Origin: Bdellovibrio sp. BCCA
Lineage (GTDB): Bacteria; Bdellovibrionota; Bdellovibrionia; Bdellovibrionales; Bdellovibrionaceae
Length of the DNA stretch: 64,000 nucleotides
Assembly: GCF_037996825.1 (NCBI RefSeq)
Contig: NZ_JBBNAC010000001.1
Location: forward strand, 1,798,001-1,862,000
Direction of reading: 5' to 3'
Of the stretch, positions 21,520 to 25,918 are shown piece after piece. The notes below the pieces were generated by a model. The model saw nothing but the letters and a program-made list of their open reading frames with translations. It made no database searches and was not told the origin of the DNA. Made by a program: the position numbers and the translations under genes. Position 1 is the stretch's first letter. Every line of letters begins with the position of its first letter.

Positions 21520-22170
21520 TTAGTTGTATCCGTTTTTATAAGCTAAATCATAGTCAGGAAAGAAAACGCGTTTCCACACTGGAATTTGTTCGATGTCTTC
21601 AGGAGAGAGAACTTTTTTAAGTTCGAAATCTCCCACGGGATTTCTTCCTACTTGCTTGCGAACTCTTAAACGGAATAAGTACGGAGCTTCCGTTTCTTTA
21701 TATTCATTCGAGAAAACGCCACGTTTATTGTCAAAAGCTTCTTTCGCGGCTTTGCTGAACTTGCTCACGACACCTTTATCAAAAGGGTAGATGAAGTAAA
21801 TCAGGCCCCAACCTTGGCGAAGCATTTCTTCATTCAAATCTTTTCCGTCCTTTAAGAGACGACCTAAGATGCGACCGTGTTTATCAACGTCACTGTCTTC
21901 AGACAGAATAAGAATAGAACCCTCAGGCGCCATCGCTCTTAAAGCGTCGCGAGCTTTCAAGGAAACGTCACCTTGTGTGTTCTTATAGAAATCGACTTCA
22001 GGGGTATCCACACCCATCAAACGCACTTTGTATCTTTCGTCGTCATCAACGCCGACAGCCGTCAGAGTATCGCCATCGTGAACGCTCACAACTTTCAAGC
22101 GAATGCCTTCAGCAAAAAGAGTGGCAGGGAAAAGAAGGATCAATAATAAAAGACTGCGTAGGTAATTCAT
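21520..22170 (-). CDS. Exported thermonuclease-family protein (SNase fold)
   Basis: 216 residues with a clear signal peptide (MNYLRSLLLLILLFPATLFA). The staphylococcal nuclease domain is intact: VVSVHDGDTLTA (calcium-binding aspartate), YKVRLMGVDTPE (the arginine and glutamate of the active site), and DKHGRILGRLL (second active arginine), then EEMLRQGWGLIYFIYPFDKG. A C-terminal extension of about 60 residues follows and is not recognised. A secreted calcium-dependent DNase/RNase fits prey nucleic-acid digestion in a predator, but that role is inferred. Last gene of the minus-strand group here. Confidence 0.88.
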   Translation of the reverse strand: MNYLRSLLLLILLFPATLFAEGIRLKVVSVHDGDTLTAVGVDDDERYKVRLMGVDTPEVDFYKNTQGDVSLKARDALRAMAPEGSILILSEDSDVDKHGRILGRLLKDGKDLNEEMLRQGWGLIYFIYPFDKGVVSKFSKAAKEAFDNKRGVFSNEYKETEAPYLFRLRVRKQVGRNPVGDFELKKVLSPEDIEQIPVWKRVFFPDYDLAYKNGYN

Positions 22171-22206
22171 AAATTGCAGTCTTAATTCGCGAAACCCGGA
22201 AACGCA

Positions 22207-22230
22207 AGAAGCCTCTAAAACGAGGCTTCT
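22207..22230 (-). terminator. Stem-loop between two minus-strand genes
   Basis: Perfect nine-base stem AGAAGCCTC and GAGGCTTCT with loop TAAAAC, lying between the stop of the exported protein at 22272 and the start of the nuclease. On the minus strand only TTGCGTTTC follows, so it is at best a weak terminator; it may separate the deiminase-like pair from the nuclease gene. Confidence 0.5.
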
Positions 22231-22271
22231 AAGTCAGTAGGAAATACTAAAGTGTCTAAAAAACCGACGCT

Positions 22272-22766
22272 TTACTTGCTGCCTTTGCTTCTTTTGTTCA
22301 AAGGATTTTTCTGTGACTGTGGAAAACGGGCGCCAATTCCGTGATCTTTCAGATTATTGGTGACTTCTTTACAGTCGGAATAACCAGTTCGATTTCGCCA
22401 AGCAATCTGTGCAGACGGGGGTACTCCGGGCTGAGTGGAAACATTTAAAGTGATGCGTTTGCGAAGATGACGATTGAACGATTTTTCAAAGGGACTGCAA
22501 GCTTCCGGAATTGTTTTAAAAATGACTTCGGAAATTTTACCCGAAGAACTGTCCTGCACACTTTCAACAGCCATGGGGCAGGTGACGGTGTCAGATGACG
22601 AAGTGATTTTAATTTCCGCATGATCCAAATCGCTGACGTTCACCAAGCCGGAAAGATTTTGTTTTTCCAACCAAGCATCATTGATTTTGCAAGAGTAAAG
22701 CGTCTCTGCGGCCGAGGCGGTATTAAGAATCCCCAAGAAAAGAAAAGTACTGAGAGCGGTTTTCAT
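22272..22766 (-). CDS. Exported protein of unknown function, coupled to the deiminase-like gene
   Basis: 164 residues. Signal peptide MKTALSTFLFLGILNTASAA, cleaved before ETLYS. The mature part has four cysteines (YSCK, VTCPM, EACSP, SDCKE), which could form two disulfides, and beta-rich sequence such as AEIKITSSSDTVTC and RKRITLNVSTQPGV. The C-terminal 25 residues are strongly basic (SQKNPLNKRSKGSK). No family recognised. The ATG overlaps the stop of the upstream deiminase-like gene by one base (TAATG), so the two proteins are made together and both are exported; it could be a partner, inhibitor or chaperone. Confidence 0.75.
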   Translation of the reverse strand: MKTALSTFLFLGILNTASAAETLYSCKINDAWLEKQNLSGLVNVSDLDHAEIKITSSSDTVTCPMAVESVQDSSSGKISEVIFKTIPEACSPFEKSFNRHLRKRITLNVSTQPGVPPSAQIAWRNRTGYSDCKEVTNNLKDHGIGARFPQSQKNPLNKRSKGSK

Positions 22767-24427
22767 TATTTCTTACCCCCTTGAGGACGGCAGTAGCGAA
22801 TGGCGTGACTTGAACAATGCAAGTTGCCTTGTTGGACGTGAGCGAAATGGGTGTCGATGTAATCTGTTTTTAATCCGAGACCTTTTATTTGATTGTCTAT
22901 ATCGGCTTTAAACGCGGGATTCACGGGCTCAGGCATGATGTAGGTATTTCCGACAATTTCACCATTTGTAGGATTCGGAAATAAGGAAAGGCCTGTACCC
23001 ATGGCATACGAGGCTGGTTGTTTATCGTAGTCCATCATGCCTTGATAGATATCGGGAATATCGAGAGTCTTTGGAGAGCACTGAGGATATTTTTGTTTTA
23101 GTTTCGCTAAAAGATCTTTTTTGAATTGTTGAATGGCTTTTTCAACGGACTCATTGAAATCTTTAAATTCTTTGTCTGACTCAATGATTTTCGCCAAATC
23201 CTTGTTCGTCATTTCAAGGCACTCTTTAGCTTCATCCATTTTTGCCTTTGATTTCAAATAGCCTGCTTTTTTCATCTGCTGCTGTATTTTGTTGAGGATT
23301 TCATTTTTGCGAGCAAGAAGTCGCTGTCTTTCTTCCACAGATTTCGGTTCCATATCATCAAGGGCCTGAAGCTCTTTGTAGAGGTTTTCAACTTTCGGAT
23401 CTGTGATTGACAGAACTCCGGCAAAAGCTTTTGTGATCGACAGATCCCAAAGCAGTTGCGAAACGCCTTTTCCTGAGCGGGTTTTCCCTGGGGAAGGAGG
23501 CAGATTTTGTGATCTCTTGCTGGCTGTGTAAGCAGCACAAATTTCGCGATATCCCGATTGTCTGACACGAGTGATAAGTTCTTCGCCAGAAACACCGGGG
23601 AAATCGAAAACTTTTCCGTCGGGATTTCCCTTTAAAACTTCAAGACCTTTTTTAGGGCTTGCAAAGGCCAAGGCAAAATCGCAAGGTGGTTTTTGCGAAG
23701 GATCTTTGAGAGTTTTAAACATCTCATCGGTATGACCCACCTTAAGAAAATCAGAAGGCGTTTTCACTGCGGCGTCCATGTTAGTGCAAGTGGATTTAGC
23801 GTAAGAGTCCCATTCATTGTTGTTGAAGTGATCCGCTCCTAAAAGACACAGTCCATTGACGGCCTCAATGTTTCCACCGCTGTGACCGGATTTGTACTGA
23901 GCATTTTCCAATAATACGCCGGCATGAATATTACATTCTTTGGCGGTGGAGTTGATCATGGAAGTGTAAGAATCTCCATGGCGTCCGTAACCTTGAACCT
24001 CACGAAGAACAGGTTGGCCCGTTTTAGGATTATAAAAGTTGTCGAAATAATCTTGCTGCCAGTTCCAGCGATTGTTTCCTTCAACACGTGTTAAACCTTT
24101 GATCCACTGGTCGGCGACTTGCGGTGAAGGAGCTTGTTTGCGAAGTTCGGCAACAACGGACTCATAAGTTTCAGGTGTCACATGAAGAAAAAACTGCGGA
24201 GGTTTTTGCGGTTGGGCCTTCATGACTTTTGTTACATAAGACTTCACCCACTCAGGACCGCCTTCGTAGTCAGAAACTGTGGCTGCCATAATCGGATAAT
24301 TTTCGGAAAGAAGAGTGCTGCCTGTCGTGGGACATGCAGGCACATCAGAACTCATGGGATTGTGTTGGGAGCAGGCGTTTTGTCCTTGAGCGAAGACTAA
24401 GTTGATGAGGAGGAGAAAGAACGTCAC
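22766..24427 (-). CDS. Exported protein-arginine-deiminase-like (PAD C-terminal domain) protein
   Basis: 553 residues, GTG start with AGGAG five bases upstream and a signal peptide (MTFFLLLINLVFAQG). The body matches the animal PAD catalytic domain in order: NNRWNWQQD with Asp126 (PAD4 has NDRWIQD, Asp350); GYGRHG with Arg149; GGNIEAVNGLCLLG (PAD4 FGNLEVSPP...LGRILIG); FLKVGHTDE with His232 and Asp234 (PAD4 WLAVGHVDE); FALAFASPKK; LDIPDIYQ (DIIDIPQLF); LFPNPTNG; LGLKTDYIDT; and GNLHCSSH with Cys538 (PAD4 GEVHCGTN, Cys645). All four catalytic residues are present. A coiled-coil insert fills about 345-445. The animal N-terminal calcium-binding domains are absent. Predicted to convert arginine to citrulline, probably in exported or prey proteins; activity is inferred. 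Confidence 0.8.
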   Translation of the reverse strand: MTFFLLLINLVFAQGQNACSQHNPMSSDVPACPTTGSTLLSENYPIMAATVSDYEGGPEWVKSYVTKVMKAQPQKPPQFFLHVTPETYESVVAELRKQAPSPQVADQWIKGLTRVEGNNRWNWQQDYFDNFYNPKTGQPVLREVQGYGRHGDSYTSMINSTAKECNIHAGVLLENAQYKSGHSGGNIEAVNGLCLLGADHFNNNEWDSYAKSTCTNMDAAVKTPSDFLKVGHTDEMFKTLKDPSQKPPCDFALAFASPKKGLEVLKGNPDGKVFDFPGVSGEELITRVRQSGYREICAAYTASKRSQNLPPSPGKTRSGKGVSQLLWDLSITKAFAGVLSITDPKVENLYKELQALDDMEPKSVEERQRLLARKNEILNKIQQQMKKAGYLKSKAKMDEAKECLEMTNKDLAKIIESDKEFKDFNESVEKAIQQFKKDLLAKLKQKYPQCSPKTLDIPDIYQGMMDYDKQPASYAMGTGLSLFPNPTNGEIVGNTYIMPEPVNPAFKADIDNQIKGLGLKTDYIDTHFAHVQQGNLHCSSHAIRYCRPQGGKK

Positions 24428-24445
24428 CGAAACTCCTGTTTGTTT

Positions 24446-25918
24446 TTAAGCTGCCTGCAATCCTTTGACAAAATCGGTCGATAATTTTTCAGCCAAATTC
24501 AAGGAGACTTTATTGTAAGCAGATTTTTCCGCAAATCCCATGAGCATTCCCACCAGTTTTTCATTCACAATAATAGGGGAAATCGTCACGTGATCTGGAA
24601 TACGACCTTGGTTCCAGCCTTCAAAGAATTTTTCATTGATCTCGTTTAAAGAGATATAGCCATGGAAGGATTTTTGTGTAGAAGCTACGATATTAAAAAT
24701 ACTTGGCGTTTTCAAAGGAACGCGCATTGACGTGTCTTTCATTCCCTGGAAATTTTCATCCCAAGCAAAAGCCGTCAATTGCGTTTCTTGATCGTCCAAA
24801 GTCAAAATCATGGATTTTTCAAAATGCACTTTCATTTCACTCAAGGCTTGTTTCACCTTTTCGTTCATCAAAGCGGTATTTTTCTTTTTCATTTTCTCTA
24901 ACGAGAAATTTCCACTCGCCACAGGATTGATCGTTGGTTTAGCAACGCCTGCAGGACGGGGAACGATAGGAATCGGTTTGTTTCCAAAGCTGTCTTCAAA
25001 AGGCGGAGGCATCTCCGATTTTGGAGGAGGCGGTGGAACTTTTTTCGGCGCCGAAGAATCTGCAACAGGTGAAGCCGCAGCAGGGGCTGCCGCGATAGGA
25101 ACTGGAATCGGCGTTTTATCTTCACTTAAAACCAATTCATCGACTTGTGTTTTTGGCTCTAGTTCCGCAGAAAATTCCTGTAAAGCAGCATCGGAAGTTG
25201 AAGAAACGACTTCAATAGAAGGATTTGAATTTGCCTGAGGAGTTTCTTCTTTTGAAGATAATGCCTCTAAGCGAATCACGGTCGGTCCGTCAAAAAGACC
25301 ATCCATGCTCTCTGACTTTTCGGCTGATTCATCAAGAGCAGCCGGAGCTTTTTCTTCATCAACACCAAGATCATCAAACGAGAAACTGTCCGAAGCGCCA
25401 TGCTTCGTCACGGTCGCTAAAGAAAGATCAATGCCTTCCGGTGCATCTTCAACAGCCGACGAAACGGGAGCCGGTGCCACAGTTTTTTCAGGATGAAGTT
25501 TTCTCCAAGCCTCTTGCAAGTCTTCAAAACTTGCTAAGACAATAACGCTTGAAGGAGTGGAAGGGAAATCCTGTGGCGGTTGAAGACATGCTACGATGAG
25601 TGAACCGTCCCACTCCGCCACAGGCAGACACTCCACAGACCACGGGTAATGGGTCGCCCACTTTGCGAACATTTCCTGGGAAAGAGGAGTCTCTGTAAAA
25701 AATCGTGACTGAAGTTTCGGTAGTTTGTAGTGAGTCATCGCCCACGGTAAATAATCATCCGAGCGGAGGCGTTGTTCCTTCAAGGCATACCCTAAAAGAC
25801 TTAAAGGCGAACCACTTTGTTCAAATGATTCTGTAAGTCCTTGAAGTTGCTCTTTAAAATGTTCAAACCATACGTGATGACTCATCTCTTTGTTTATCGG
25901 TAGATTGGGGTAAAACAT
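24446..25918 (-). CDS. Proline-rich linker protein with GspE-N-like start, unknown function
   Basis: 490 residues, no signal peptide or membrane segment. Residues about 35-130 (SLLGYALKEQRLRSDDYLPWAM ... LPVAEWDGSLIVACLQPPQ in parts) follow the pattern of the GspE/MshE N-terminal domain: a helical start, then a strand pair with VxxLPV and VA. Residues about 150-330 are a low-complexity acidic and Pro/Ala-rich linker including KKVPPPPPKSEMPPP. The C-terminal 150 residues look like a GAF-type sensor fold (SMILTLDDQETQLTAFAW ... VGMLMGFAEK). No ATPase motif. Start at 25918 is uncertain; ATG at 25885 is an alternative. Perhaps a scaffold or regulator of a secretion or motility system. Confidence 0.65.
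   Translation of the reverse strand: MFYPNLPINKEMSHHVWFEHFKEQLQGLTESFEQSGSPLSLLGYALKEQRLRSDDYLPWAMTHYKLPKLQSRFFTETPLSQEMFAKWATHYPWSVECLPVAEWDGSLIVACLQPPQDFPSTPSSVIVLASFEDLQEAWRKLHPEKTVAPAPVSSAVEDAPEGIDLSLATVTKHGASDSFSFDDLGVDEEKAPAALDESAEKSESMDGLFDGPTVIRLEALSSKEETPQANSNPSIEVVSSTSDAALQEFSAELEPKTQVDELVLSEDKTPIPVPIAAAPAAASPVADSSAPKKVPPPPPKSEMPPPFEDSFGNKPIPIVPRPAGVAKPTINPVASGNFSLEKMKKKNTALMNEKVKQALSEMKVHFEKSMILTLDDQETQLTAFAWDENFQGMKDTSMRVPLKTPSIFNIVASTQKSFHGYISLNEINEKFFEGWNQGRIPDHVTISPIIVNEKLVGMLMGFAEKSAYNKVSLNLAEKLSTDFVKGLQAA

Follow-up and report, generated by a model that had tools for sequence, protein, structure and literature searches.

The 64,000-nucleotide stretch of DNA analysed here (the window), part of a Bdellovibrio genome of 4.0 Mb, encodes an apparently exported protein that is the catalytic domain of a peptidyl-arginine deiminase (PAD) alone, without PAD_N or PAD_M, followed by a small exported partner. 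As far as the tools show, what is new is that predators have this stand-alone, disulfide-rich exported form of PAD, together with its accompanying family of partners; bacterial PADs, and citrullination by a bacterial PADI, are already known. Our preferred reading, which by analogy with a characterised pair from the same genus we consider almost an even prospect, is that the locus encodes an exported peptidyl-arginine deiminase that would act on prey, together with a dedicated periplasmic inhibitor. The features of the locus are as follows.

22766..24427, minus strand: putative exported protein with a PAD-family catalytic domain, 553 aa, GTG start (frame intact, AGGAG-type ribosome site upstream; PF03068, profile and model)
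24389..24427, minus strand: putative signal peptide MTFFLLLINLVFA, residues 1-13 of the PAD protein (its sequence and the signal peptides of relatives)
24050..24052, minus strand: Asp126, counterpart of catalytic PAD4 D350 (PAD4 alignment; invariant in two alignments of relatives)
23732..23734, minus strand: His232, counterpart of catalytic PAD4 H471 (PAD4 alignment)
23726..23728, minus strand: Asp234, counterpart of catalytic PAD4 D473 (PAD4 alignment)
22814..22816, minus strand: Cys538, counterpart of the nucleophile, PAD4 C645 (PAD4 alignment)
23864..24055, minus strand: span with Gln125 (Q349), Asp129 (E353) and Glu188 (E411), counterparts of calcium site 1 (alignment columns; roles presumed from PAD4)
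23222..23539, minus strand: variable helical insert, about residues 297-402 (alignment of relatives; model, low confidence in part)
22272..22766, minus strand: the partner, a small exported protein of 164 aa, predicted to be an eight-stranded barrel, with four invariant cysteines
24446..25918, minus strand: gene upstream of the PAD gene, 490 aa, with a weak GAF-like end
21520..22170, minus strand: exported SNase-like nuclease, downstream

The original prediction had placed an exported PAD in an open frame that, as confirmed here, runs exactly from 22766 to 24427; it left unstated that the frame is on the minus strand. PAD identity and export are both supported, but the neighbouring partner gene and the lack of PAD_M had been missed. 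A gap of 18 bp separates the GAF-like gene from PAD, so these two and the partner may be co-transcribed; the ATG of the partner overlaps the PAD stop codon (TAATG). Scans for promoters and terminators gave nothing informative.

Membership in the PAD family is shown by several computational comparisons. The PF03068 profile matches the protein significantly, at 53.7 bits against a curated cut-off of 25 (E=2.2e-14), and matches 20/20 relatives as well. A single-sequence query of the PDB gave PAD4 as the closest relative of solved structure (E=6.8e-5), and a 29-sequence profile retrieved the human PADs (PAD4 at E=1.3e-25). AlphaFold, given 20 sequences, produced a model with a pLDDT of 82.5 and a pTM of 0.80; when this model was used as a Foldseek query (E=6e-16), all 50 of the 50 matches listed were PADs or egg cytoplasmic-lattice entries containing PADI6. 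The overlay on PAD4 suggested by the original prediction matched residues 37-552 of the model to PAD4 296-660, the catalytic domain alone, with a Z of 31.4 and an rmsd of 2.7 over 327 residues (VIA-align). Pfam gave no match to PAD_N or PAD_M, and only ~36 residues, signal peptide included, precede the equivalent of PAD4 residue 296. The Porphyromonas gingivalis enzyme PPAD, a pentein superfamily member, is likewise a deiminase that a bacterium exports, but it belongs to a different, agmatine-deiminase-like family, whose Pfam profile left the Bdellovibrio protein unmatched at E up to 1, in keeping with the earlier view that the two are unlike. What had been described as a coiled-coil insert is indeed a helical stretch at about residues 300-400, but its length varies and it is much shorter in several relatives, and so it is no fixed feature of the family.

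The catalytic machinery is intact. Alignment to a PAD4 reference that had been checked against the PDB pairs Asp126, His232, Asp234 and Cys538 with D350, H471, D473 and C645, and all four are invariant in 20/20 sequences, as the claim that every catalytic position survives would have it. The motifs cited for that claim all occur at the residues given and in the right columns, although the PAD4 strings quoted for comparison were slightly off (DDQWMQD, not NDRWIQD). Counterparts were found for PAD4 W347, Q349, D350, E353, E411, V469, H471, D473, N588, H637, H644 and C645, and the majority of these positions are invariant in the 20 sequences. W347 and V469, which we take to flank the side chain of peptidyl-arginine in PAD4, correspond to W123 and V230 and are kept in nearly all relatives. 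R374 and R639 are presumably the other two PAD4 residues that serve the substrate side chain; the former is matched by a conserved Arg142 in only one of two alignments, and the latter is not kept, being Q532 in the Bdellovibrio protein. Among what we take to be the side-chain ligands of PAD4 calcium site 1 (Q349, E353 and E411), E353 is represented by D129 in the Bdellovibrio copy and by Glu in most relatives, and judging from these columns site 1 probably remains in the Bdellovibrio enzyme. The counterparts of E351, D369, S370 and N373, presumably the ligands of calcium site 2, are not kept. In one member of a membrane-anchored PAD group from the same phylum (L050:1399-2907, genome G106), the catalytic His, Asp and Cys have all been replaced, and this copy is a probable pseudoenzyme.

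An animal enzyme in a bacterium is not in itself a novelty. Excerpts of a 2021 survey report PF03068 proteins from 295 bacterial species, including 69 species of proteobacteria (Cummings et al. 2021, PMC8826395), and describe a cyanobacterial PADI that was shown to citrullinate proteins (PMC8826395); exported-looking PADs occur in Streptomyces too. According to the same excerpts, a divergent PAD_M is retained in those bacterial and fungal PADs that fall outside the animal-type clade, so the stand-alone Bdellovibrio form is an architectural variant (PMC8826395). The cyanobacterial, actinobacterial and fungal PADIs (PMC8826395) are likewise non-animal PF03068 proteins, but in them a PAD_M-like region precedes the catalytic domain; the actinobacterial ones examined here also have signal-like N-termini, and those of Streptomyces are almost free of cysteine. 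No partner gene for non-animal PADIs was found in the excerpts of the survey (PMC8826395) or at two annotated Streptomyces loci, and our literature search found no paper on a Bdellovibrio PAD. Animal PAD1-4 (PADI) share with the Bdellovibrio protein the catalytic fold, the catalytic tetrad, W347, V469 and the calcium site 1 ligands; the Bdellovibrio protein differs from them in lacking PAD_N and PAD_M, calcium site 2 and R639, and in its export, its nine extra conserved cysteines, its variable helical insert and its partner gene.

Export of the Bdellovibrio PAD is supported mainly by its relatives. Nearly all of them start with a recognisable signal peptide, and nine non-catalytic cysteines are kept in at least 19 of the 20 sequences, a pattern compatible with disulfide bonds formed outside the cytoplasm; Streptomyces PADs, by contrast, have one cysteine in their catalytic part. 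The signal peptide proposed earlier for the window protein itself stands on weaker ground, since it is short and has no positive residue ahead of its core. PAD export is not peculiar to predators, because Streptomyces plasmid PADs also begin with signal-like sequences. On a plasmid of Streptomyces sp. NBC_00984, an exported-looking PAD gene (L166:1580-3565) lies between genes for a response regulator and a histidine kinase, neighbours that suggest regulated secretion of the PAD. A second, diverged PAD group within the phylum (L048, L049, L051-L053 and L055) has an N-terminal membrane anchor, or in some members a lipoprotein-like start instead, and keeps the catalytic residues without an adjacent partner gene.

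The partner fits none of the families in Pfam, NCBIfam or PADLOC. Its model (pLDDT 84.4) predicts a barrel of eight antiparallel strands, for which Foldseek found no clear fold relative (best E=0.025; Z up to 7.8, to GID4 and avidin-like barrels), and the likeness to these proteins may reflect merely a common barrel arrangement. Cysteines at positions 26, 63, 90 and 132 are invariant and common to 20 partner proteins that have 10-52% identity to the window copy. A profile made from Bacteriovoracia partners alone found the Bdellovibrionia members among 3833 open frames (E 6e-8 to 0.014), and nearly all of its matches were frames adjoining a PAD gene. By this leave-one-class-out comparison of sequences, the partners form one family.

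The association between enzyme and partner holds across the phylum. In a survey of 369 Bdellovibrionota genomes, PAD was present in 77, the partner in 29 and both in 26 (Fisher p=9.6e-17). There were 32 well-scoring PAD genes (above about 330 bits), one of which lies at a contig end and was not readable (G155); among the remaining 31, the partner adjoins 30, as a rule downstream, with the G083 partner, which the profile did not match, identified solely from its position, size, signal and four cysteines. In 20 named loci from Bdellovibrionia and Bacteriovoracia (L058-L077), a small exported protein is encoded directly 3' of every PAD gene. G122, and apparently G311, have the opposite gene order, so synthesis of the partner does not always follow that of the enzyme. 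The sole exception among the 31, G070 (L159), carries changes in calcium site 1 (Gln125 to Lys and Glu188 to Gly) that would fit an enzyme past the need of restraint, as a single case. PADs without an adjacent partner otherwise occur in G016, G062, G063 and the membrane-anchored group; the one in G016 (L132) has lost calcium-site-1 residues too. At one locus with tandem PAD genes (L063, G089:C26), each gene is followed by its own partner, and the two partners have diverged from each other. An orphan that is a good partner homologue (L086:1086-1586, G078:C135) was also seen, with no PAD found adjacent to it or elsewhere in that fragmented genome.

Within the genus Bdellovibrio, the partner is present in 6/6 genomes that have the PAD orthologue and in 0/18 that lack it; one of these 18 (G016) has its diverged PAD elsewhere in the genome. 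Since only 6/24 Bdellovibrio genomes have the cassette, it is no general requirement for predation. The GAF-like upstream gene is kept in 24/24 genomes, with or without PAD, and the SNase-like nuclease forms the other border of the cassette in most of the genus. What lies between the GAF-like gene and SNase/TsaE (22170-24446 in the window, and the corresponding site in L120-L131) varies within Bdellovibrio; by gene names assigned by eye, this site holds PAD and partner or, in PAD-less genomes, isochorismatase-like, GNAT-like or other exported accessory genes, or nothing. Two broken PAD copies with internal stops were found in a genome of the same family as the window genome (G041:C85 and C220).

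Both genes are under selection against change, with dN/dS values of 0.04-0.06 among three close strains. The PAD sequence changes faster than those of its neighbours, and outside the genus the identity of the partner falls to about 10-23%, versus 25-36% for the enzyme. In a tree that contains no cyanobacterial sequence and has long branches in its deep part, the Bdellovibrionota PADs form one group distinct from human PAD4 and Streptomyces, and sequences of Bdellovibrionia and Bacteriovoracia branch separately; the cassette is thus probably old and often lost. We rejected a recent transfer from an animal or a cyanobacterium, as the tree, within those limits of branch length and sampling, agrees with ancient inheritance accompanied by losses. 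Cargo of a phage or plasmid is likewise unsupported: PAD relatives were found in no viral contig, phage or plasmid, and in the genus the site is fixed between conserved genes.

How might such a pair work? The enzyme would be exported by the Sec pathway and would fold with disulfide bonds in the predator periplasm; it would bind at least one structural calcium, at site 1, and its Cys/His/Asp/Asp site would convert arginine side chains of proteins to citrulline. The barrel would bind the enzyme and block it in the predator periplasm until delivery to prey. The model for this last step is a pair from B. bacteriovorus: Bd3459, an exported endopeptidase, and Bd3460, a small exported ankyrin protein whose gene follows immediately. 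Bd3460 co-purifies with Bd3459, inhibits it and shields the predator from its own weapon (PMC4686830). The two loci share a genus and a layout, an exported enzyme followed by a small exported protein, but the enzymes are different, and the partner described here is predicted to be a four-cysteine barrel in which no ankyrin repeats were found (no Pfam match); inhibition is proposed by analogy with Bd3460 (PMC4686830). Arrangement and precedent are the whole basis on which the partner may be seen as an inhibitor. The fuller version of this idea, in which the barrel is a natural, genetically encoded PAD inhibitor and the pair a predatory effector and self-protection cassette that citrullinates prey proteins and brings its own antidote, is tentative, and we would put it well below even. 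Against the preferred reading stand the loss of calcium site 2 and R639, the alignment-dependent match to R374, the short signal peptide, the lack of a clear fold relative for the barrel, the reversed gene orders, the PADs that have no adjacent partner and the restriction of the cassette to 6/24 Bdellovibrio genomes.

The main rival is that the partner is needed by the enzyme rather than restraining it, as an obligate chaperone, an activating subunit or an export adaptor; in a two-subunit secreted deiminase the barrel would replace the missing PAD_M. The enzyme does lack the PAD_M that, in the excerpts of the survey, other bacterial PADs have (PMC8826395), both proteins are exported and translated from overlapping genes, and the partner is nearly inseparable from the stand-alone PAD form while being absent beside most other PADs of the phylum. 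The far weaker conservation of the partner would, however, be unusual for an integral subunit, the precedent set by Bd3459 and Bd3460 is one of inhibition (PMC4686830), and membrane-anchored stand-alone PADs in the same phylum manage without a partner; on balance we think an obligate role unlikely. We are equally doubtful that the enzyme works within the envelope of the predator itself and not on prey, citrullinating exported proteins such as the partner, pilus or surface proteins for their maturation or for resistance to the predator's own arginine-cutting proteases. A signal peptide takes the enzyme to the periplasm only, no sign of transfer to prey was found, and the phylum includes a related group with a membrane anchor, but patchy presence within one genus and faster change than the neighbours suit an accessory tool better.

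It is also conceivable, if rather improbable, that this is a PAD-fold enzyme for another substrate, namely free arginine, small guanidino compounds or peptides of digested prey, feeding arginine breakdown. The loss of R639 and calcium site 2 and the alignment-dependent match to R374 would suit such a change, whereas the conservation of the W347 and V469 counterparts speaks for a peptidyl substrate, and no obvious arginine-pathway gene lies beside PAD in the loci examined, with neighbours judged by eye. We give very little credence to a non-catalytic relative kept for binding: the phylum does contain one copy without the catalytic His, Asp and Cys (that of G106), but the invariance of the four catalytic residues and a PAD dN/dS of 0.04-0.05 speak against it.

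Should the enzyme prove active as our preferred reading has it, protein citrullination would be a tool of bacterial predators, made by a PAD reduced to its catalytic part, and the locus would show how this part can function in the absence of the calcium-switch domain found in animal PADs. If the partner inhibits the enzyme, it would be, to our knowledge, the first PAD inhibitor to be found among natural proteins, and may be of use against PADs linked to arthritis.
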